Below are positions 1,829 through 53,105 of a stretch of DNA of 64,000 nt, one piece after another. The stretch is from an uncultured Clostridia bacterium (GTDB lineage Bacteria; Bacillota; Clostridia; Christensenellales; UBA3700): contig CANSGN010000001.1 of NCBI GenBank assembly GCA_947646415.1, positions 67,945 to 131,944 of the forward strand. The letters are read 5' to 3'. How positions within the stretch are numbered: position 1 is the first letter of the stretch; the number at the start of each line of letters is the position of its first letter. The notes under the pieces are model-generated. The model saw only the letters and a list, made by a program, of their open reading frames with translations. It was not told where the DNA came from and did no database searches. The translations under genes were made by a program, and so were the position numbers.

Positions 1829-3388
1829 ATGATAAAAATTGTGCCACAAGTAAAATGCATTGAGGAAAATGATTTGCAGATTAATTTCAGCGAAATTAAC
1901 TTGCAAGGAGATTTATCTGCGTTTGCAAAAAATGATTTGCAAAGTTTTATAACTGACAAAACCGAATACTGCTGCTCGGATAAAGGATATACCATTGAAT
2001 TTAAAATTTTATCGGACGACCACTGCAAGGAGTGGTACAGTATTGATGCACAGGTTAACGGAATGACAGTATGCGCATGCACAGAGGAAGGGATTTTTAG
2101 GGCGGTTACTACATTAAAACAAATTTTATCTCAGCCGTTATGTGGTTTTACTTTGGAAGATGAACCGCAAAATTCATTTAGAGGATTTATGCTGGATGTC
2201 GGTAGATATTTTTATTCGGTTGCGGATGTTAAGACTATTATCGATTATGCGGCTTTATATAAATTCAATTATTTTCATTGGCATTTGACAGAGGACCAGG
2301 GTTGGAGGTTTGAGTCGCAAAAATATCCTAAACTAACAGAAATAGGCAGTCACCGTTCGCATACTAACTTTGGCATAAAAAAAGAGAGTGGATTTTATAC
2401 CAAATACGAGCTTAAGGAAATTGTGCAATATTGTCACGAAAGATTTATAAGGGTTATCCCCGAGATAGATATGCCGGGGCATACAATGTCGGCACTTGCT
2501 TGTTATCCAGAACTGTCTTGCTTTAACAGGAAGTTGAAAGTTTCCACGCATTGGGGTATTAAATTTGACATATTGTGTGCAGGTAAGGACTTTACTTATA
2601 CATTTTGTAAGGATATACTTGACGAGCTTTGTGAAATATTTACGGATGAGTATATTCATATAGGTGGGGACGAAGCTCTTAAAAAGCGTTGGGAGTTGTG
2701 CGAAAATTGCAATAAAAAATTAAAAGAATTAGGGCTTGACAATATGGAACAGCTACAGCTGTATTTTGCAAATTATTTGGCAGAACACCTATCTACAAAA
2801 GACAAACAAACTATTGTGTGGTATAATAAGTTTGACGAAAAAGACAAAATTGTACCTAACAAAGATATTATCTTGCAGTTTTGGGGGACGAAAAAAGATG
2901 CCGAGTTTGCAAACGTCGTAAAAAGCGGCAGAAGAGTAATAACATCTAACAGCAGTGGATACTATATTGATTTACCTTACGGGTATATTACCTTGGCCGA
3001 TTCGTATAATACGCAAGGAGTAACGGGTGTTGAAGATACAAAGACTATTTTTGGTTACGAAACTTGCCTTTGGACAGAGTATGTTAAAAATTTGAAAAAA
3101 GCTAAATTTAATATGTTTCCAAGGGTGTTTGCAATAAGTGAAGTTTTTTGGAGCGGGGAGAGCAACAAAGATTATCAAAGATTTTTGCAAAAACTCGAGT
3201 TTGAAAAACAATTTATCCGAAAGTTTGATGTAAAAGTACCTAGAAAAGGTATTTATAATCCAAATGTTATAAGAAAGTTTTTTTCGAAATTGTGGTTTGA
3301 AAAAAGACAACTCGTTTGGCAAGGACTATATTTGACTGTCGATAATTATTTGGTAAAAAGAAAAGTTAAACGGTCAAAAAAGAAATAA
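1829..3388 (+). CDS. Beta-N-acetylhexosaminidase, GH20
   Basis: This 519-residue protein is a family 20 glycoside hydrolase, which removes terminal GlcNAc or GalNAc by substrate-assisted catalysis. An N-terminal alpha/beta domain (about residues 1-105) precedes the TIM barrel, which opens with FRGFMLDVGR. The HWHLTEDQGWR segment, EIDMPGH and the catalytic pair in HIGGDE (Asp281-Glu282) are all present, so it should be active. No signal peptide is visible, so I infer a cytoplasmic enzyme acting on imported oligosaccharides or recycled cell-wall fragments. The C-terminus is lysine/arginine rich. It has its own promoter and runs into two small membrane-protein genes (19-bp gap), but nothing shows that they work with it. 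Confidence 0.93.
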   Translation: MIKIVPQVKCIEENDLQINFSEINLQGDLSAFAKNDLQSFITDKTEYCCSDKGYTIEFKILSDDHCKEWYSIDAQVNGMTVCACTEEGIFRAVTTLKQILSQPLCGFTLEDEPQNSFRGFMLDVGRYFYSVADVKTIIDYAALYKFNYFHWHLTEDQGWRFESQKYPKLTEIGSHRSHTNFGIKKESGFYTKYELKEIVQYCHERFIRVIPEIDMPGHTMSALACYPELSCFNRKLKVSTHWGIKFDILCAGKDFTYTFCKDILDELCEIFTDEYIHIGGDEALKKRWELCENCNKKLKELGLDNMEQLQLYFANYLAEHLSTKDKQTIVWYNKFDEKDKIVPNKDIILQFWGTKKDAEFANVVKSGRRVITSNSSGYYIDLPYGYITLADSYNTQGVTGVEDTKTIFGYETCLWTEYVKNLKKAKFNMFPRVFAISEVFWSGESNKDYQRFLQKLEFEKQFIRKFDVKVPRKGIYNPNVIRKFFSKLWFEKRQLVWQGLYLTVDNYLVKRKVKRSKKK

Positions 3389-12337: not shown

Positions 12338-13591
12338 ATGAAGAACAATCAAAAGAAAGCAAGAATTGTAATGATTGGTTTGGGTGGAAGAGGCTTTGGC
12401 TTGTTACGCCTTAACCTTGTGCGTATGCCTAATGTGGAAATCGTAGGGATATGCGATACATATCAAGATAGGATTGATGATGCGATAAACAAAGTTAAAA
12501 AAGTTTGTGGGAACACGCCTAAAGGCAGTACAAATTATAAAGACTTTTTGAATGACGAAAATGTTGATATAATAATGATTACCTGTGCGTGGGAAGGACA
12601 TATTGATATTGCAGTTGATGCAATGAATGCAGGCAAGTTTGTGGCAATGGAAGTCGGCGGTGCTTACAGCGTGGAAGATTGTTGGAGGCTTGTGGATACT
12701 TATGAAAAAACAAAAGTACCTGTAATGATGCTTGAAAACTGCTGTTATGGCGAATATGAACTTATGGCGTTGAGAATGGCAAGAGAGGGTATTTTTGGAG
12801 ATATTGTGCATTGCGAGGGCGGATATCATCATGATTTGAGGAAAGAAATTGCTTTTGGCAAAGAGAATCGCCATTACAGATTGAAAAACTATTTAGAGAG
12901 AAATTGTGAAAATTATCCTACTCACGAAATCGGACCTATTGCAAAAATATTGGAGATTAACCGAGGCAATATTTTTACTAACTTGACATCCTTTTCGTCT
13001 ACGGCAAAAGGTTTACACGAATTTATTTTAAAGAATAAGGCTGATGATAAAGAACTTTTAAATGCGGAGTTTAAGCAAGGGGATATTGTTACTACAGTCA
13101 TAGAAACTTTAAAGGGACAAACTGTGGTTATTCAGCTTGATACCACTTTACCAAGGTCATATTGCCGTGGTTTTACCATAAGGGGCACAAAAGCTATGTA
13201 CCAAGAAGATAATAATTTGGTGTTTGAGGATAATGGTGTGCACGGCAAACTTTATGAGTTTAATAGTAGACCTATTTGGAATAACGGAAAAAAATATGCT
13301 AAAAAATACGCTCATAGAATTTGGAAAAACAAAGGTGCAGTAGTAAAGGCGGGACACGGAGGTATGGATTCCCTTGTGCTTAATGCGATGGTCGAGGCAT
13401 TTTTGGAGGGGTATTATCCGCCTATAGATGTTTACGATACTGCAACTTGGATGGTTATTACCGCTTTATCCGAACAATCGATAAAAAACAATAATCAAAA
13501 GGTGGAATTCCCGGATTTTACAAGAGGTAAATGGAAAGATAGACAAGATGTTTGCTCTGGTCATTACAGCTTGGAGAGAGATGTAAAATAA
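12338..13591 (+). CDS. Gfo/Idh/MocA-family oxidoreductase, GH109-like
   Basis: A 417-residue NAD-dependent protein. The N-terminal Rossmann fold begins MIGLGGRGFGL (residues 12-22). The central part reads MEVGGAYSVEDCW, MLENCCYGEYELMALRMAREG and the NYPTHEIGPIAKI stretch, which closely recalls glycosidase family GH109. GH109 enzymes use bound NAD to cleave alpha-N-acetylgalactosaminides by a redox mechanism, and many relatives act on other alpha- or beta-linked sugars. No signal peptide is present, so the substrate would be cytoplasmic. The upstream PAP2 gene is in the same direction and only 17 bp away. A terminator follows. The family is clear; the substrate is inference. Confidence 0.85.
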   Translation: MKNNQKKARIVMIGLGGRGFGLLRLNLVRMPNVEIVGICDTYQDRIDDAINKVKKVCGNTPKGSTNYKDFLNDENVDIIMITCAWEGHIDIAVDAMNAGKFVAMEVGGAYSVEDCWRLVDTYEKTKVPVMMLENCCYGEYELMALRMAREGIFGDIVHCEGGYHHDLRKEIAFGKENRHYRLKNYLERNCENYPTHEIGPIAKILEINRGNIFTNLTSFSSTAKGLHEFILKNKADDKELLNAEFKQGDIVTTVIETLKGQTVVIQLDTTLPRSYCRGFTIRGTKAMYQEDNNLVFEDNGVHGKLYEFNSRPIWNNGKKYAKKYAHRIWKNKGAVVKAGHGGMDSLVLNAMVEAFLEGYYPPIDVYDTATWMVITALSEQSIKNNNQKVEFPDFTRGKWKDRQDVCSGHYSLERDVK

Positions 13592-13631: not shown

Positions 13632-13779
13632 AAATAACATAATACTATTTGTTGAAAATAACTTTTTTAAAATAATAAAGTATATTTTAATAATTGGTTA
13701 CCCAAAATGGGAATATTTAATATACTGAAAGTATAGGACTTTGTTAAAAAGTACATATTATTTTTTGAGAGGAAGTATT

Positions 13780-15780
13780 ATGGATATTAATAAATTGTGC
13801 AGCCAAGAAGAAAACAGGCTTGAAATAATACAAAAACATAAAGATAACGGGGTGTTTTTTAAAAGCACTGAGGGGGTATTTATTTCTGCCGAAACAACCA
13901 TAGGGGCAGGTAGCGTGATTGACTGCAATAATATTTTTAACGGTAAGTGCGTGATAGGAAAGGATGTTACTATCAATGACGGAAATACTTTGACAGATTG
14001 CACTTTGGGCAATAATGTTACAATTACTAAAAGTGTTGTAAATAACGCGGTTATCAAGCAAAACACTACTGTAGGGCCATGGGCTCACGTTCATACGGGA
14101 AGTGTAGTGGAAAGAGATTGCCGTATCGGTAATTTTGTGGAAATCAAAAACAGCAATATCGGCATAAATACAAAAATGGCACATTTGGCGTATATAGGCG
14201 ATAGCGACATTGGTGCAAAATGCAATATCGGATGCGGAGTTATATTTGTAAATTATGATGGTAAAAACAAACATCGCAGTGTAATAGGCAACAGTGTTTT
14301 TGTGGGTAGTAACAGCAATATTATTGCACCTATCAAAATAGAAGACAACTCTTTTATTGCCGCAGGCACAACAGTTACTATAGACCTCCCAAAAAATTGT
14401 ATGTGTATTGGCAGAAATCGGGAAGTGGTAAAAGAAAACAGGAGTAAATATCGTATGTGTGATTATGATAAAAAGTACTTTGGAACAGACGGAATACGTG
14501 GCGTTTACGGCGAAAAACTAAATGAAAAAATTGCTTATATGGTAGGTAACTTTTTGGGATATTCTGCCGACAAAGGTGTGATTTGTTTGGGACGTGACCC
14601 AAGAAAGTCGGGTGTCAATTTGTCGGAGGCTTTGATTCAGGGAGTGTTGGATAGTGACTGCGACATAATTGATTTAGGTGTGATTTCAACACCTGCCGTT
14701 GCAAACATAACAATGATGGCAGGGGCAAATTACGGCGTGGTAATTACCGCATCGCATAATCCTAGTGAGTATAACGGCATAAAAATATTTAACGATTGCG
14801 GAAGAAAGCTTTTGAATATCGAAGAAATTCAGATTGAAGAGCATATCGCAAAAGATAAACCTATTATAAGTAAAAATAAAGGAAAAGTAATATATAAAGA
14901 CGAATTGGTACAAAATTATATTGACTTTGTCTGCCAAGATTTACCCGATTTGTCCGCACTAAAAGTTGTGGTGGATTGCTCCAATGGTGCAAGTACTCAA
15001 CTTGCAAAACAAGTGTTTAGCAAACTTAATATTAAAACAAAATTTATCGGCACTGAAAATGACGGGGATAGCATTAACAAAAATTGCGGTGCATTGTATC
15101 CCGAAAAGTGTGCAAAGGAAGTCGTGGCAAGCAGTTTTGACTTGGGCTTCTGCTTTGACGGAGATGCGGATAGAATTATTGCAATAGACAATAAGGGCAA
15201 AGTAATAAGCGGAGATAAGATAATTTATGCGTTTGCAAAAGATATGAAAAACAAGGGTATTCTTGCAAACGATACTGTTGTCGGAACTGTTATGTCAAAC
15301 TACGGATTTGAAAATAATCTGTCAAAAATCGGTATTAATCTTGTCAGAACAAATGTCGGCGACCATTATGTGGTGGAAAAAATGCTTGAGAATGGGTATG
15401 TACTAGGGGGAGAAAGTTCGGGACATATCATATTAGGGGACAAAGTAACTACGGGCGACGGATTGCTTGTTGCGGCAAATTTGTGCAAACTTGTTGTGGA
15501 AAGCCATTTGCCACTTAGCAAACTTACGGATATACAGGAGTATCCTCAAATTAATATAAATATAATTACGGATAAAAAGGAAGATATTGCAAACGATAAA
15601 CAAGTGCTTGACTATGTAAGCAATTTTTCGGACAATTTAGGAGATTTCGGAAGAGCTTTTATAAGGGCAAGCGGTACGGAAAATAAGCTAAGGATAACCG
15701 TTGAGTGCGATAAGGAGAATACCGCAAACGACGTTGCAATGTCAATCAAAAAGTTTATTTCAGACAGCTACTCGTTATAA
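13780..15780 (+). CDS. Fusion of GlmU acetyltransferase domain with phosphoglucosamine mutase GlmM
   Basis: A 666-residue two-domain protein. Residues about 30-218 form a left-handed beta-helix of hexapeptide repeats that matches the C-terminal half of GlmU (glucosamine-1-phosphate N-acetyltransferase): IGNFVEIK, AHLAYIGD and VNYDGKNK are present, giving equivalents of E. coli Lys351 (K123), His363 (H135), Tyr366 (Y138), Asn377 (N149), Asn386 (N158) and Lys392 (K164). The equivalent of substrate-phosphate-binding Arg333 is His105. Residues about 230-666 are a full GlmM: FGTDGIRG, ASHNP with phosphoserine S325, DGDADR and RASGTE. The protein would convert GlcN-6-P to GlcN-1-P and then to GlcNAc-1-P. 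The uridylyltransferase half of GlmU is absent. The start is ATG 13780, with GAGAGGA at 13767-13773; the longer TTG frame has no such site. Confidence 0.93.
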   Translation: MDINKLCSQEENRLEIIQKHKDNGVFFKSTEGVFISAETTIGAGSVIDCNNIFNGKCVIGKDVTINDGNTLTDCTLGNNVTITKSVVNNAVIKQNTTVGPWAHVHTGSVVERDCRIGNFVEIKNSNIGINTKMAHLAYIGDSDIGAKCNIGCGVIFVNYDGKNKHRSVIGNSVFVGSNSNIIAPIKIEDNSFIAAGTTVTIDLPKNCMCIGRNREVVKENRSKYRMCDYDKKYFGTDGIRGVYGEKLNEKIAYMVGNFLGYSADKGVICLGRDPRKSGVNLSEALIQGVLDSDCDIIDLGVISTPAVANITMMAGANYGVVITASHNPSEYNGIKIFNDCGRKLLNIEEIQIEEHIAKDKPIISKNKGKVIYKDELVQNYIDFVCQDLPDLSALKVVVDCSNGASTQLAKQVFSKLNIKTKFIGTENDGDSINKNCGALYPEKCAKEVVASSFDLGFCFDGDADRIIAIDNKGKVISGDKIIYAFAKDMKNKGILANDTVVGTVMSNYGFENNLSKIGINLVRTNVGDHYVVEKMLENGYVLGGESSGHIILGDKVTTGDGLLVAANLCKLVVESHLPLSKLTDIQEYPQININIITDKKEDIANDKQVLDYVSNFSDNLGDFGRAFIRASGTENKLRITVECDKENTANDVAMSIKKFISDSYSL

Positions 15781-15979: not shown

Positions 15980-18976
15980 ATGAAGTATTCACTAAAAACT
16001 TGTAACTATTGTAATTTTGAAATTTTTGAAAAAAATAAAATGTCTGCAAGGACATATTGCATACCTTACAAGGATAAAAAACTTGCAAGCAGTGTTGACC
16101 TGCTTGAGGAAAGATATTCAAGCCAAATGGTAAAAATATTAAATGGTAATTGGGATTTTGTGTATTACGGCAAGTTGTCCGACATGCCAGACGAGTTTGA
16201 TACTGCAACTGCCAATTTTATAAAAATTCCCGTTCCCGGAGATTGGCAAAGAAATGGGATAGAAAACCCTAACTATTTAAATACAAGATATCAATTTTTT
16301 ATGAATCCGCCACATATACCGACGGATATTCCTGTGGGTGTTTATCGTACGAAAATCGATATTAAATTGCCAGATAAAACATACTTATTAAACTTTTTAG
16401 GTGTTTGTGCATGCTTTGATTTGTTTATAAACGGCGAGTTTGTAGGATACAGCGAGGGCTCGCATAATACGGCAGAGTTTGACATAACAAAATTTTTGAA
16501 AGTAGACAAAAACGAGATAATCGTAGTTGTATATAAATGGTGTAACGGTACATATCTTGAGTGTCAGGATATGTTTAGGGAAAACGGTATTTTCCGCGAT
16601 GTATTTTTGATAGAGGAAAATAAGAGCTATTTGTACGACTTTGGGTACAGCACCAAATACATAATTGACAAAGAGTATCATATAAATTTTGATTTTACTG
16701 TTGCAAATCCTACAGCAGATAGCTCGGTAACATTTGAACTTTACGATGCGGAGGATAAACTTTTGCTTACCGAAACTTTATTGGGAGCACAAGGCAACAA
16801 AGTTATAGATATTAAAAACGTTCATGAGTGGAGTGCGGAAATACCGTATTTGTATAAATTGCTTGTTACTTACTCAGACGGCAAAAACTCTGTTTACTTT
16901 AGAAGATTTGTTGGTTTTAAGCATGTGGAGATTGACGGAAATGTATTTTGGCTTAACAATCAACCAATCAAATTAAAAGGTATCAACCATCATGAATCGC
17001 ACCCTAAAAACGGATATGTGGTTACACCTGAATTTTTGCTTAACGATATTAAACTTATTAAATCATATAACTGCAATGCAGTTAGGTTGTCGCACTATCC
17101 GCATGACCCGTTGTTTTTGATGCTTTGCGACAAAATCGGTTTGTATGCGGTAGACGAGATGGATTTGGAGGCTCACGGCACTTATCGAAATCCGATGTAT
17201 CAAAGGTTTGGGCTTATAAGCCATAACGCTAAATGGACAAATCACTTTTTGGATAGAGCAAAGCGTATGTATTACAAATCGCGTAACTGTGCAAGCGTGG
17301 TAATGTGGTCGCTTGGTAATGAAGCAGGTGGATATTTGTGCCAAGACGAGTGCTACAGATTTTTAAAATCGGTATCCAATCTTCCTGTGCATTACGAAAA
17401 TGCTATACATACAAAAAGATTTTGCTATGATGTAGTAGGACATTTTTATCCTAGCCATGCGCACTTAGAGTCAATGGCAAACAAGACAATAAAAGACAAA
17501 AGGTTTTTGCAAAAGCCATATTTGATGACAGAGTATTCGCATGCAATGGGTATGGGACCGGGCGGACTTGAAAGATATACTCAGTTGGTGCTTGATAACA
17601 AGAATTTTTTGGGTGGATTTATTTGGGAGTTTTGTGACCATATAGTAGATAATCCAGAACATAAATTTAGATACACTTACGGCGGAGATTATAACGAGCC
17701 TAAGCATGACGGAAACTTTTGTGTGGATGGAATGTTTTTCCCTGATAGAACACCAAGCACAGGTGCTTTGAACATGCGTGAGTGTTACAGACCATATCGA
17801 GCAAGACTAAACGGCAATAAGTTGGAAATTTGGAATACAAATTACTTTAAAAGCACAAAAGGTGTGCAATTAGAGTGGAAATTGCTTAGAAATGGCGAAA
17901 GTATGCAAGATGGCAATTTTGAAATAAATGTTCCTGCAAGGGAAATTGTTTGTTACGATATTTTGTATAAGTTGCCTAGGGATATGTCAGAGTATACCTT
18001 GATTGTTACCTATATGGAAAATGGGGAGTACATAGCAAGCGAACAATTTGAAGTAACACCGTTTATTCCTGTAAAACCTATGTTTAACCCTCCTAAATTT
18101 GACATTGCGGATGGGGTACTGACTGCAACCTGTGACGACGGCAAATTGGTTGTAAACAGTAAAACAGGCGAAATAGAAAGCTACAATATCGGTGGAGTGG
18201 AATATATTAACGAGAACAATGCTTTGGGATTTAAAGGCTTGTTACCTAATATGTACAGAACACCTATCGATAATGACAGGTTTATTAAAATCGGTTGGGC
18301 TGTTTTGGGTATGCTTAAGGCAAAACCTAAACATAAAAACACTATTTTTGATATAAATAACGGTCTAAAGATTATAAGCAAATATGCAGTTTGCGGATAC
18401 GGAAAAATAGCAAACGTAATCGTAACTATTGCTGTGGACGAAAACCTTGAATTGCATATCACTGCAAAAGCTACAAAAGGCTTTAAACTTTTATTCTATA
18501 ATGACATTGTAAGGTTTGGACTAACACTTGAAATGCCATCTGCATTTAACAAAGTAGAGTATTTTGGCAGAGGCGAACGAGAGACTTTGGCAGACTTTAA
18601 CGAACACGGTAAGTTTGGTATTTATAAAGTTGATGTGGACGATATGGCAGAAAAATACATAATGCCGCAGGAGTCCGGTAACAGGAGCGATTGCAGATGG
18701 GCGAAAGTTACGGATAGTAACGGTAATGGTTTGATGTTTAATCTTGTTTCCCATCCGTTTAACTTTAATGCAAATCCTTATACAAGATATCAAATGGAAA
18801 ATGCAAAACATCGTGAAGAAATTGGAAAAGCAGATACAACTTGCGTACAAATCGACGGATTTATGCGTGGTAGCGGTAGTCAAAGCTGTGGTCCTCAACC
18901 TGAAAAATTTGCAAGACCTAATTTAAGCAAGCCGCTTGAGTTTGACTTTATTATCAGTCCTATACGCGAAAAATAA
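15980..18976 (+). CDS. lacZ: Beta-galactosidase, GH2 (LacZ type)
   Basis: A 998-residue enzyme with full LacZ architecture, close to the 1024 residues of E. coli LacZ. It has a jelly-roll sugar-binding domain (about 60-200), an immunoglobulin-like domain, a TIM barrel (about 320-600) and a C-terminal beta-galactosidase small-chain domain (about 690-995). The acid/base glutamate is E448 in WSLGNEAGG and the nucleophile E518 in TEYSHAMG. KGINHHESHPKNG and RLSHYPHDP are also present. No signal peptide is seen, so it should hydrolyse imported lactose or other beta-galactosides in the cytoplasm. It is a single-gene unit with its own promoter, GGAGG ribosome binding site and terminator. No permease or local regulator is adjacent on the same strand. 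Confidence 0.95.
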   Translation: MKYSLKTCNYCNFEIFEKNKMSARTYCIPYKDKKLASSVDLLEERYSSQMVKILNGNWDFVYYGKLSDMPDEFDTATANFIKIPVPGDWQRNGIENPNYLNTRYQFFMNPPHIPTDIPVGVYRTKIDIKLPDKTYLLNFLGVCACFDLFINGEFVGYSEGSHNTAEFDITKFLKVDKNEIIVVVYKWCNGTYLECQDMFRENGIFRDVFLIEENKSYLYDFGYSTKYIIDKEYHINFDFTVANPTADSSVTFELYDAEDKLLLTETLLGAQGNKVIDIKNVHEWSAEIPYLYKLLVTYSDGKNSVYFRRFVGFKHVEIDGNVFWLNNQPIKLKGINHHESHPKNGYVVTPEFLLNDIKLIKSYNCNAVRLSHYPHDPLFLMLCDKIGLYAVDEMDLEAHGTYRNPMYQRFGLISHNAKWTNHFLDRAKRMYYKSRNCASVVMWSLGNEAGGYLCQDECYRFLKSVSNLPVHYENAIHTKRFCYDVVGHFYPSHAHLESMANKTIKDKRFLQKPYLMTEYSHAMGMGPGGLERYTQLVLDNKNFLGGFIWEFCDHIVDNPEHKFRYTYGGDYNEPKHDGNFCVDGMFFPDRTPSTGALNMRECYRPYRARLNGNKLEIWNTNYFKSTKGVQLEWKLLRNGESMQDGNFEINVPAREIVCYDILYKLPRDMSEYTLIVTYMENGEYIASEQFEVTPFIPVKPMFNPPKFDIADGVLTATCDDGKLVVNSKTGEIESYNIGGVEYINENNALGFKGLLPNMYRTPIDNDRFIKIGWAVLGMLKAKPKHKNTIFDINNGLKIISKYAVCGYGKIANVIVTIAVDENLELHITAKATKGFKLLFYNDIVRFGLTLEMPSAFNKVEYFGRGERETLADFNEHGKFGIYKVDVDDMAEKYIMPQESGNRSDCRWAKVTDSNGNGLMFNLVSHPFNFNANPYTRYQMENAKHREEIGKADTTCVQIDGFMRGSGSQSCGPQPEKFARPNLSKPLEFDFIISPIREK

Positions 18977-19624: not shown

Positions 19625-21265
19625 ATGATTAATTATAAAAATGATAGGGAAAAACTGAATACAGCATTTAAGGGGTCGAAAGATATATTTATGCTTGATA
19701 CTACTGCTTTGGGAAGAGCAGCGGTATTGTGTTTTATCGACGGTATGACGGGGAAAGAACTTATTGACAGAAATGTCATTGAGCCGTTGAAAAAATGCGA
19801 TATAAATTTTAGTGAAAAACAGTCTGAAAGGTTTAACAGCACTATAAAAAACATTGATTGCATAGATATTACGGATATTTTGCAAGAAGATGGCGTAAGT
19901 CAATTTAACGACTACTATAATAGCGATGTGATAAATGTCAATGCCGAAAACTCATTGGATGAAGATAATGATAACTATTTGATAAGAGAACAAAATTCGG
20001 TAAAATTGGAACAGACGAAAGTTATTACAGCCGATTTGATAAACAAAATCATATATATATCCGACCCGATTATTGTTTGCGAAACATTTGAGGAAATGGT
20101 AAGCAAAATAGTAAGCGGTGATATAGGACTTATGATTGACGGGGCGGAAAATTATTTTGTTTTGTCGCTTAGGGACTATAAAATAAGAGGAATAACCGAG
20201 CCTCCCGTATCCACAGTGCTTCGCGGTCCGCGTGAAGGTTTTGTGGAAGATATGAAAACCAATATGACAATGCTTAGGCGAAGATTTAAAACGCCTGATT
20301 TGGTTTTCGATTTGATGCAAATAGGTAAATATTCGGGGACTCAAATTGCCATTGCCTATGTTGACGGCATTGCTGACCCAAAGATTGTACAAGAGATAAA
20401 AAAAAGAATATCAGAGATAAGCTGTGACGGAATTATCGACAGCTCGTATATTGCAACTTATATAGAGGATAATAAATACTCGTTATTCAGTCAAGTTGGC
20501 AGTGCGGAAAAACCTGATATAGTAGCGGGCAAAATGCTTGAGGGGAGGGTTGCTATTATTTGCGACGGGTCGCCTACAGTTTTGACATTGCCATTTGTAT
20601 TGTTTGAGCATTTTCAGTCAAACGAGGACTACTATATAAAAAGCTATCGTGCATCGGCTACAAGAATTTTAAGAGTTATCGCTATGATAATTGCAATAAG
20701 CTTACCGGCTGCTTATGTGGCACTGCAAGAGTTTCAATATCACATGTTCCCGCTAAAATTGTTGGTTGTGATAATGAATAGTTTGCAAGGTGTACCTTTA
20801 ACTCCTACCATAGAAATGATATTTTTGCTCTTGGTATTTGAAATTTTGAACGAGGCAAGCGTGCGTATGCCGCGTTATGTGGGAACGGCACTCTCGATAG
20901 TGGGGGCAATAGTACTCGGAGAATCCGCGGTCAGTGCGGGACTTCTTTCCGTACCGACCTTGCTTGTTACAGCTATGTCTACTATAGGACTTTACTGCGT
21001 GCCTGACGAAGTAGATGCAGGCAGCATTTTGAGGACACTTTTTGTAGGTGTTGCAGGTGTGCTTGGAATATTCGGATTGATATTGGCGGTATTTGCACTA
21101 TTTGCCTATATGGTAGGTTTAAAAAACTTCGGCACAAGCTATATGGCACCTTTCTCGCCAATGCTTATCAGTGATATGCAAGACGGAATTACAAAAGATA
21201 ATTTGATTGATATGAAAAAAAGACCGTTCACTATCCCTACTTCAAACAGGGTTAGAGCAAAATAA
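19625..21265 (+). CDS. gerAA: Spore germination protein GerAA (GerA family)
   Basis: A 546-residue A-subunit of a GerA-type germinant receptor in the spore inner membrane. A long soluble N-terminal region (about 1-340) contains the typical ARVDGIADP-like element (here AYVDGIADPKIV), EDNKYSLFSQVGSAEKPD and GRVAIICDGSPTVLTLP. Membrane helices follow, with SYRASATRILR, FEILNEASVRMP and IVLGESAV. The annotated ATG has no convincing ribosome binding site; translation from it may be weak or the true start may differ slightly. It heads a three-gene operon with the B and C subunits, which is good evidence that the organism forms endospores. The germinant cannot be read from sequence. Confidence 0.93.
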   Translation: MINYKNDREKLNTAFKGSKDIFMLDTTALGRAAVLCFIDGMTGKELIDRNVIEPLKKCDINFSEKQSERFNSTIKNIDCIDITDILQEDGVSQFNDYYNSDVINVNAENSLDEDNDNYLIREQNSVKLEQTKVITADLINKIIYISDPIIVCETFEEMVSKIVSGDIGLMIDGAENYFVLSLRDYKIRGITEPPVSTVLRGPREGFVEDMKTNMTMLRRRFKTPDLVFDLMQIGKYSGTQIAIAYVDGIADPKIVQEIKKRISEISCDGIIDSSYIATYIEDNKYSLFSQVGSAEKPDIVAGKMLEGRVAIICDGSPTVLTLPFVLFEHFQSNEDYYIKSYRASATRILRVIAMIIAISLPAAYVALQEFQYHMFPLKLLVVIMNSLQGVPLTPTIEMIFLLLVFEILNEASVRMPRYVGTALSIVGAIVLGESAVSAGLLSVPTLLVTAMSTIGLYCVPDEVDAGSILRTLFVGVAGVLGIFGLILAVFALFAYMVGLKNFGTSYMAPFSPMLISDMQDGITKDNLIDMKKRPFTIPTSNRVRAK

Positions 21266-21298
21266 AGTTTGACACAAAGCAGTGTTTAAAAGGCAAAA

Positions 21299-22381
21299 AT
21301 GGAAAAATCATTAAATAATTATGTTCACGACAATGTGATATACTCAAATCAATTTGCTATCATAGCTTTTATAGTTATGATAGTCTTTAAGATTGCAAAC
21401 TTGCCGTCTTATATGTATCAAACGGCGGGGCGAGATGCTTGGATAGTTATCGGTATACTAATGGCAATAGAAGCGGCAATGTTTTTTGTTGTTTTATATA
21501 TAACAAAAAGGGTAAATTTGCTTGCGGATAACAATAAATGGCTTTATATTTTTCATGCTTTTATGTATGTATATGCAATGATTAGATTGACGGTTTTATA
21601 CTCCGGCTTAATAACTTACACCTCGTCGAGTTTGTTTGACCAAGGCAGAATCGATTTTATAATATTAGCGTTTGCATTGGTAATTCCTTATATCGCAAGT
21701 AAAGGCGGCAACTCGGTTGCAAGGCTATTTGAGATGTTGTTTTATTTTGTCATGGCAATTTTGCTAGTAATGATTTTGACACCTAGCTTTAAAGCGGATT
21801 TTAGCGAATTAACCCCGATTTTCGGCGAAAATAATCCAAAATTAGTTAATAGTTTTATCGATTATTCCGTTTGGTTTGGAGATTATGTTCCATTGCTTTA
21901 TTTTACAGTAAAAAACAACAAAAACAAAATTATCGATAAGGCATCCGTACCTGTCGCGGTAATAAGTGCGACAATCGGCATAGTGGTTTTTTATATAGCC
22001 TTTATTGCTGTATACGGCGAGGCAGGTGGACTTGTTAGCTTTGCTTTTAACCGTATGTCTGTGTTCAATACACTTAGTGAATTGCTAGGAGCAACAAACT
22101 TCCTAAGTATTTTGGTTTGGATGATAATGTCTATACTACAAATTACAATGATTTTTTTGACTGCATGTAATGCGTTGATGTGTATTATTAAAAATAGAAT
22201 ACTTGCTATAGTGGTAAATACCTTGGTTATTTCTGCGCTACAATGGTTTTTTATCAAAAACTTGGAGACTGCACATAATTTTGCAATAGGCTATGTTAAA
22301 TATTTTGTAATAGTTTGTGCTTTTGCAATACCAATCGCTATGGCTATTTATGCTAAGTTATGTGCAAAGGGGAAAATATGA
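21299..22381 (+). CDS. gerAB: Spore germination protein GerAB (amino-acid permease-like)
   Basis: A 360-residue integral membrane protein of the APC-fold spore germination family, with about ten helices. It is the B-subunit of the germinant receptor and is thought to hold the germinant-binding pocket. It lies 33 bp after gerAA; its TGA overlaps the ATG of the C-subunit (ATGA), showing translational coupling. Family features include the N-terminal QFAIIAFIVMIVFKIANLP segment, the central SFKADFSELTPIFGENN loop and a typical length. No strong ribosome binding site is visible before its ATG. Confidence 0.9.
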   Translation: MEKSLNNYVHDNVIYSNQFAIIAFIVMIVFKIANLPSYMYQTAGRDAWIVIGILMAIEAAMFFVVLYITKRVNLLADNNKWLYIFHAFMYVYAMIRLTVLYSGLITYTSSSLFDQGRIDFIILAFALVIPYIASKGGNSVARLFEMLFYFVMAILLVMILTPSFKADFSELTPIFGENNPKLVNSFIDYSVWFGDYVPLLYFTVKNNKNKIIDKASVPVAVISATIGIVVFYIAFIAVYGEAGGLVSFAFNRMSVFNTLSELLGATNFLSILVWMIMSILQITMIFLTACNALMCIIKNRILAIVVNTLVISALQWFFIKNLETAHNFAIGYVKYFVIVCAFAIPIAMAIYAKLCAKGKI

Positions 22382-23508
22382 AAAAGTTTTTAACATCAAA
22401 GTGGGTAATAATATTGACAGTACTAATTCTGTTGGTAGTATTTAATGCCTTGGTTTTTAATGTAAGTGTGGTAAATAGAAATATAGTAGTAGGATTGGGA
22501 CTTGATTTTGACGGGACGGAATATACATTGCATACTCAAGTGGTATTGCCTAAAAACGGAGGGGTTGCAAGTGGTGGCGGTAATAATTATATTACTCTTA
22601 AAACTAATGCACAAAATATCGATATTGCGATTGATAAAATCGAAAAAGAGCAAGGTGTAATTTTATCTCTTGCTCAAGCTGCTATATTGGTATTGGGTAA
22701 AAATATGGTAGAGTCAGGCGATTTGACTTTGGTTGAAGCCTTTTTTATGGATGACAGAGTACATGACAACTTGCTATTAGTAATGGCGGAAGATAAAGCG
22801 GAAGATGTTATGAATGCGACGGTTGCAGCGGGGGAAGTGGCAAGCTTGCAGTTGGTAAGGCAATTAAGCCCGACAAAAGCACCGCTTGGCGTATCTACAA
22901 TTACAATGCAAGAGTATATTCGAAATGCTAAAAATAGTAATAAAATCAATTATATGCCAATGATTAGTGTGGAAAAAACAGAACCGTCAACCGACCAATC
23001 AAAGGAGAATGAGGATGAGGCAGATAAATTTTTGATTACACAATCGGCTTTGCTGGATAACAATGGTTTGCAGTGCCTATTGGATTTGGATATGACACAA
23101 ACATTCAGTTTGGTAAAAAAAAGCTTGCAAGATGGTGTAATAAAAGTTGAGGGGGAAGACTTTTTTAGCGTTCATTTGGTGGAAAGTAAGACAAACTTGA
23201 GTTATGACTTAGATTTAATGGAATGTAAAGTAAAGATAAAAATAAAAACAATCCGCACTGATGCTCAATATATCAATGGTAAGGCTTCATTTAAATTGAG
23301 CGACGAAGAACAAGAAAGATTAAAGCAATCTTTAAATACTAGGGTAAAGGCGTTATATGAGTATGCAAAAGCGCAAAAAGTAGATGCTTTTAGTATAGTA
23401 GATGGCTTTAAAAAGAAATATCCTAAAAAATCAAGCCAAATAATGGCTGACGACTTTTTGGACAATATTAATTTAAAAGTGGAAGTAACAATAACTCAAG
23501 TAGAGTAA
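22378..23508 (+). CDS. gerAC: Spore germination protein GerAC (Ger(x)C family) lacking a lipobox
   Basis: A 376-residue C-subunit of the germinant receptor. After an N-terminal hydrophobic helix (about residues 9-30) come the family hallmark NIVVGLGLDFDG, a LAQAAILVLGKNM segment in the first domain and the C-terminal domain ending in KKYPKKSSQIMADDFLDNINLKVEV. Family members are normally lipoproteins with a cysteine at the end of the signal peptide. Here there is no cysteine in or near the hydrophobic segment, so an uncleaved membrane helix is likely. The start is ATG 22378, which overlaps the gerAB stop and is preceded by AAGGGGA; a start 18 bp upstream is possible but less supported. A terminator follows. 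Confidence 0.9.
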   Translation: MKKFLTSKWVIILTVLILLVVFNALVFNVSVVNRNIVVGLGLDFDGTEYTLHTQVVLPKNGGVASGGGNNYITLKTNAQNIDIAIDKIEKEQGVILSLAQAAILVLGKNMVESGDLTLVEAFFMDDRVHDNLLLVMAEDKAEDVMNATVAAGEVASLQLVRQLSPTKAPLGVSTITMQEYIRNAKNSNKINYMPMISVEKTEPSTDQSKENEDEADKFLITQSALLDNNGLQCLLDLDMTQTFSLVKKSLQDGVIKVEGEDFFSVHLVESKTNLSYDLDLMECKVKIKIKTIRTDAQYINGKASFKLSDEEQERLKQSLNTRVKALYEYAKAQKVDAFSIVDGFKKKYPKKSSQIMADDFLDNINLKVEVTITQVE

Positions 23509-52226: not shown

Positions 52227-53105
52227 ATGAAAAAAGTTACTAAGGCTGTAATACCTTGCGCAGGTTTCGGTACACGTTTTTTGCCAATTACAAAGGCTGT
52301 ACCAAAGGAAATGTTGCCAATCGTAGATACGCCTTCTTTGGATATTATTGTAGATGAATGTATAAATAGCGGTATTACGGATATTTTGATAGTATTGGGC
52401 AAAAATAAAAAATGTATAGAGGATTTTTATGATTATGCACCTGAACTTGAAAAAATCTTGTCAAAAGCAGGTAAAGCCGCTCAAATAAAAGTTATTAATA
52501 ATTTGGCAGATAAAGCAAATTATTTTTATTGCAGACAAAAGGAAATGAATGGCTCTGCCATGGCAGTACTTGCGGCAGAAGCATTTGTGGGTAGTGACCC
52601 GTTTGCCGTAGTATACGGAGATGATATAGTTTTTAACGGAGATAAATTGCCTGCAATCGGCCAAATGATTGAGGCTTATTACACGACCGGTAAAAGTATT
52701 TTAGGAGTGCAAGAGGTTGAGGCTAAGGAAGCAATCAAATATGGCGCTGTAATAAAAGGTCAGCAAAAAGGCAGATATTGCGAAATGAAAGGCGTAATTG
52801 AAAAACCTGCTTTGGAGGATTTGCCGTCAACATTGGTGTCCTTAGGCAGATATGTGCTTACTCCCGATGTTTTTGATTATATCAGAAACACTAAACCAGC
52901 AAAGAATGGGGAAATTTATTTGACGGATACAATCAACGATATGGCAAAGTCAGTTGGTGTTTATTCGTATGAATTTGAGGGTAGAAGATACGATACCGGG
53001 GACAAATTCGGATATTTGCAAGCCAATATCGAGTACGGCTTGAGGAATAACGAGATTGGCGAAAGTCTTGCAAAATATATAAAAGAACTTGCAAAGAACT
53101 TATAA
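52227..53105 (+). CDS. galU: UTP-glucose-1-phosphate uridylyltransferase GalU
   Basis: A 292-residue nucleotidyltransferase that makes UDP-glucose from UTP and glucose-1-phosphate. The nucleotide-binding signature is AVIPCAGFGTRFLPITKAVPKEMLPI (here split between residues 7-32), with KEMLP and PFAVVYGDD downstream and GVIEKP, FEGRRYDTGDKFGYL near the C-terminus. The length is typical of the GalU/YngB type. UDP-glucose would feed surface polysaccharide and glycolipid synthesis. The ribosome binding site (GGAGAT) is present. It is not a substitute for the missing uridylyltransferase half of GlmU on family grounds. Confidence 0.95.
   Translation: MKKVTKAVIPCAGFGTRFLPITKAVPKEMLPIVDTPSLDIIVDECINSGITDILIVLGKNKKCIEDFYDYAPELEKILSKAGKAAQIKVINNLADKANYFYCRQKEMNGSAMAVLAAEAFVGSDPFAVVYGDDIVFNGDKLPAIGQMIEAYYTTGKSILGVQEVEAKEAIKYGAVIKGQQKGRYCEMKGVIEKPALEDLPSTLVSLGRYVLTPDVFDYIRNTKPAKNGEIYLTDTINDMAKSVGVYSYEFEGRRYDTGDKFGYLQANIEYGLRNNEIGESLAKYIKELAKNL

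Follow-up and report, generated by a model that had tools for sequence, protein, structure and literature searches.

The window, by which we mean the whole stretch of 64,000 nucleotides that was analysed, contains on its forward strand a frame that is open without any stop from TTG 13741 to 15780. Its likely start is ATG 13780, with GAGAGGAA immediately upstream, which gives a single gene of 666 codons (13780-15780, plus strand). The encoded protein of 666 aa joins the acetyltransferase (AcT) beta-helix of GlmU, lacking the uridylyltransferase domain, to a complete phosphoglucosamine mutase GlmM. This architecture had been proposed in an earlier note, which had also placed the gene correctly to the base, and it is confirmed by the open frame together with matches to TIGR01173, TIGR01455 and Pfam. 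The host genome, G000, is a gut-type clostridial draft of 1.73 Mb in 31 contigs that is 96.5% complete.

Genes for a GH20 hexosaminidase (1829-3388), a GH109-type NAD-dependent glycosidase (12338-13591) and a GH2 beta-galactosidase (15980-18976) lie near the fusion gene and suggest the use of host amino sugars. At 19625-23508 a gene for a GerA-type spore germination protein is followed by two GerB- and GerC-looking genes, in a genome of 1.7 Mb.

Domain architecture and active-site residues

The AcT domain, a left-handed beta-helix, comprises residues 13-223 (13816-14448, plus strand). In the NCBIfam profile search it corresponds to positions 236-448 of the 452 of TIGR01173 (glmU) with 228-230 bits, the cut-off for the full-length family being 366.85, and it is further identified by PDB GlmU chains 4aaw and 1hm0 and by its ligand residues. 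The match begins at profile position 236-237, and the uridylyltransferase domain with its LAAGxGTRM motif is absent from the protein. The domain is preceded and partly overlapped by an N-terminal helix (13807-13854, plus strand; ENRLEIIQKHKDNGVF), predicted at residues 10-23 in the fold model and homologous to the interdomain linker helix of GlmU, as seen in the phmmer alignment to RRRINHKHMVNGVSF of S. pneumoniae GlmU. Since the opening residues ENRLEIIQKHKDNGV align with this interdomain helix, the AcT half descends from a GlmU whose first domain has disappeared; the helix is, by this alignment, a remnant of the bifunctional enzyme.

A short linker, residues 224-231 (14449-14472, plus strand), leads to the complete GlmM, residues 232-666 (14473-15777, plus strand), which is likewise recognized by PDB GlmM chains. 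TIGR01455 (glmM) is its best-scoring family, with residues 234-661 matching profile positions 1-441 of 442; the score of 430.5 bits stays slightly below the curated cut-off of 447.55. All four PGM/PMM Pfam domains were found. Around the junction (14440-14457) the sequence AGGAG at 14440 stands 10 bases ahead of an ATG at 14455 that is in frame and could be a leftover glmM start site or an internal start for GlmM alone; L014 is the only other fusion with an ATG at this codon. The AlphaFold model (mean pLDDT 77.7, 12 sequences) has the order helix, left-handed beta-helix, an unstructured tail plus linker of low confidence (residues 194-231) and GlmM fold, the latter superposing on S. aureus GlmM 6gyz with a TM-score of 0.91 (Foldseek).

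The GlmM half was scrutinized for the catalytic serine loop (S/T)ASHNP, the metal loop DGDxDR, the sugar loop GGExSGH and the phosphate loop R(A/P)SGTE, and contains all four, as TASHNP, DGDADR, GGESSGH and RASGTE. For the AcT half we used E. coli residue roles and numbering, aligned through S. pneumoniae GlmU. Nine of the ten positions checked are kept (K351, H363, Y366, N377, N386, K392, S405, A423 and R440), and these nine are retained in every member of clade A, the group of fusions to which that of the window belongs. The exception is R333, a phosphate-contact ligand, at which the fusion has His108; histidine is found here in the whole of clade A and in the unfused relative L125, arginine in the other fusions. 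The substitution in this clade and L125 would fit a scenario in which activity is confined to the GlmM half, with the AcT half reduced to a structural or altered remnant and acetylation done otherwise. We consider this improbable, as the other nine ligand and catalytic positions are retained throughout the clade, the beta-helix is well conserved and a GlmU profile search identified no other GlmU-type AcT in the genome. Both activities are instead expected from the residues present, with AcT kinetics or specificity perhaps altered by the change from arginine to histidine.

Distribution and origins of the fused gene

Fused homologues with 41-54% identity occur in some 20 independent assemblies. 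In the family the two genes are more often separate and adjacent, which might speak for a sequencing error or assembly join, an outcome that the earlier note had named as refuting the fusion. Because the same fusion, with conserved linkers, is carried by homologues in many independent assemblies, such an artefact is refuted, and we attach next to no probability to it. Public records with the fusion bear the names Christensenella sp. UBA3700, UBA1782 and uncultured Clostridia; no earlier description of a GlmM-GlmU fusion was found in the open-access literature searched.

The comparison covered 46 genomes of the family and 396 of the order, mostly metagenome drafts. Within the family 13 genomes have the fused gene, 30 have AcT and glmM as separate neighbours on the same strand and three have neither. 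L013-L017 and L019 are likewise fused homologues. GlmM and AcT matches are both absent from the drafts of G010 (same genus as G000, 95% complete), G043 and G045, as a result of either gene loss or an assembly gap. GlmU above the curated cut-off was found in none of the 46 family genomes, the same search identifying it in nine of 14 control genomes. In the order only 48 of 396 genomes have GlmU above cut-off, most others having an AcT alone or an AcT behind a degenerate first domain. LAAGxGTR is kept by none of the N-terminally extended proteins examined outside true GlmU, several of which retain a remnant such as YSDTPL. Degenerate uridylyltransferase domains without LAAGxGTR precede the AcT of L197-L203, L024, L165 and L187, some with YSDTPL or YSDMPL. 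Judging from these sequences, most members of the order have either lost the uridylyltransferase of GlmU or keep it in degenerate form.

Four forms of the fusion were observed. Clade A (about 670-690 aa) occurs in genera g1 and g6 and in one genome each from families f3 and f24, clade B (632 aa) in part of genus g5, and a third form of 620 aa is represented by L019 of G288. The fourth has the reverse order GlmM-AcT (661-665 aa) and is found in five genomes of the f24 genus g49 (L163, L164, L175-L177). The clade A fusions outside the family are L124 of G277 (f24) and L123 of G047 (f3); relatives in the genus of G277 carry separate genes in the opposite order. The presence of clade A in f3 and f24 suggests horizontal transfer, or else is due to binning error.

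Changes between the fused and the separate state number at least four on the GlmM tree and three on the AcT tree, and the hypothesis that A and B, the main forward clades, go back to one fusion event is rejected (AU p 8.7e-7). On this phylogenetic reading the genes must have fused independently three times or more, in one case in the reverse order. We claim three origins and not four because the placement of L019/G288, on a long branch, is unsure.

What the gene pair looked like before fusion may be seen in the relative L125 of G137, which is of the pre-fusion type: its AcT ends in GRSKYKKI and a stop, followed by GGAGCATTT and then by a glmM that starts at the ATG with SKNKKYFGTDG. The fused junction ENRSKY...KKYFGTDG matches these two ends. 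Such relatives suggest a course in which loss of the GlmU uridylyltransferase domain would have left an operon pair AcT-glmM, from which the fused gene would have emerged once the intervening stop codon was removed. Some apparent fusions were discarded. Both matches at first seemed to fall in one 651-aa frame in G005, where the genes are actually separate and 45 bases apart, and the matches interrupted by one stop in G137, G081, G207, G085 and G115 are in-frame neighbours.

Candidates for the last step of UDP-GlcNAc synthesis

The earlier note had proposed genome searches for a second glmM and for an intact bifunctional glmU, and neither gene turned up. A PGM-family search of G000 identified a single other member, a 606-aa frame on contig 16, and no second glmM; beyond the fusion the GlmU profile yields only weak nucleotidyltransferase and acetyltransferase matches and no bifunctional GlmU. 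By these searches, the fusion is the sole GlmM and the sole GlmU-type AcT of this 96.5%-complete genome. The requirement for a separate pyrophosphorylase, which the note had deduced from the architecture, holds, G000 having no intact glmU.

The PF00483 proteins of G000 are an adjacent GlgC/GlgD-like pair, a GalU homologue encoded in the window and, on contig 6, an RmlA/HddC-like protein of 253 aa. No UDPGP/UAP pyrophosphorylase (PF01704) was found in G000. The search as such works in the order, where 48 of 396 genomes have a match; by profile search, a eukaryotic-type UDPGP as replacement pyrophosphorylase was ruled out for the family.

The GalU homologue (52227-53105, plus strand) is in our view the best candidate for the UDP-GlcNAc pyrophosphorylase, an assignment that we make tentatively and to which we would give not quite an even chance. 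Where canonical GalU has the motif GLGHA it has GSAMA (from residue 109), with serine in place of leucine. Serine or threonine replaces this leucine in all 34 GalU copies from genomes without GlmU (that of the window and 33 others); the leucine is kept in all four GalU from members of the order that have GlmU, and GLGHA is also found in the solved PDB GalU chains displayed. In the profile alignment the position falls on the Ser/Thr of GlmU (GSGHA/GTGHA). Taking the motifs as a guide, we take L89 of RmlA to be the same position. The RmlA substitution L89T has been reported to widen sugar-1-phosphate tolerance (review, PMC9415975). As leucine gave way to Ser/Thr just once on the tree, the correlation with the loss of GlmU may rest on one event.

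Two 98%-complete genomes with the same fusion, G042 and G044, have GlgC, GlgD and GalU as their only PF00483 proteins. In G207 (L018) AcT, glmM, glmS and galU follow one another in an operon, each about 10 bases from the next. The reverse-fusion genomes checked, G093 and G198, have two GalU-like genes each. GalU cannot serve everywhere, since G288 and G095 (family f28; 0.8-0.9 Mb; 98-100% complete) have AcT and GlmM without any PF00483 protein, and also without UDPGP.

Two other enzymes have to be weighed. The step could be performed by the RmlA/HddC/GMPP-like protein of contig 6 (G000:C6:74583-75290), which with 69 bits is the best GlmU-N-like match in the genome and has orthologues in most of genera g1, g2, g4 and g5. 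It was the first candidate for the pyrophosphorylase and lost ground because it is absent from g3 and g6, the latter of which nevertheless has the same fusion. Moreover, its closest solved relatives are sugar-1-phosphate nucleotidyltransferases of other specificities, and its genomic neighbours vary and include none from the pathway, so we regard it as an unlikely solution.

The other is a uridyltransferase of the GlmR (YvcK) type, promoted from accessory to main enzyme. GlmR/YvcK is an accessory uridyltransferase in Listeria, B. subtilis and S. aureus, and its orthologues, widespread in Firmicutes, form UDP-GlcNAc from UTP and GlcNAc-1-P in vitro (PMC10128056). Such an enzyme would also account for the relatives without any PF00483 protein. 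However, a motif scan covering roughly 0.5 Mb of G000 yielded nothing resembling GlmR, and we consider this route doubtful.

With the GalU homologue as the preferred candidate, a split UDP-GlcNAc pathway can be envisaged for much of the order: the GlmU uridylyltransferase was lost, the AcT was paired and then repeatedly fused with GlmM in both orders, and a GalU homologue with one residue changed to the GlmU state acts as pyrophosphorylase. We put this forward as a possible scenario that falls somewhat short of an even chance.

Proposed function and comparison with known systems

The fusion very probably arose from an AcT-glmM pair and catalyses, as one bifunctional enzyme, two successive reactions on the way to UDP-GlcNAc, a judgement that leaves the GalU part aside. 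The GlmM half would convert GlcN-6-P to GlcN-1-P, which the AcT half would acetylate with acetyl-CoA to GlcNAc-1-P; the last step, from GlcNAc-1-P and UTP, would be performed by a separate enzyme. The AcT beta-helix probably keeps the trimer of GlmU, with the GlmM domains, normally dimeric, held around it. The main gain would probably be fixed stoichiometry and co-localisation, possibly with some transfer or channelling of GlcN-1-P. That fusion has occurred in both domain orders suggests that being together matters more than exact geometry.

Bacteria cannot build their wall without making UDP-GlcNAc, and GlmU is widely regarded both as the invariable final enzyme of this synthesis and as a drug target. 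The present order is mostly without the GlmU uridylyltransferase, and in it the two preceding steps appear to have become joined on at least three occasions and in both domain orders. Nature thus provides an experiment on what drives the fusion of consecutive enzymes, be it dosage, co-localisation or channelling. It also poses the question of how these bacteria complete UDP-GlcNAc, for which the single residue of GalU provides a concrete hypothesis.

Among known systems, GlmR/YvcK shows that UDP-GlcNAc can be made outside GlmU in Firmicutes (PMC10128056); it belongs to an unrelated family and is no part of the AcT-GlmM fusion. With the C-terminal AcT of bifunctional GlmU (TIGR01173) the fusion shares beta-helix, linker helix and active-site residues, at about 38-49% identity to the AcT domains of GlmU from other Firmicutes. 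Unlike GlmU, it lacks the uridylyltransferase, has GlmM joined instead and has histidine for Arg333. Compared with GlmM (TIGR01455) it holds the whole protein with all motifs, at about 38% identity to the solved Bacillus and Staphylococcus enzymes, but differs from the usual GlmM by the extra N-terminal AcT of about 225 residues and by GGESSGH in place of the usual GGEQSGH. A phosphohexomutase is joined to a beta-helix within a single polypeptide also in the NTP-transferase/hexapeptide/phosphomannomutase fusions of the GMPP-PMM type, which thus form a precedent and in which the beta-helix belongs to the nucleotidyltransferase and not to a GlmU acetyltransferase.
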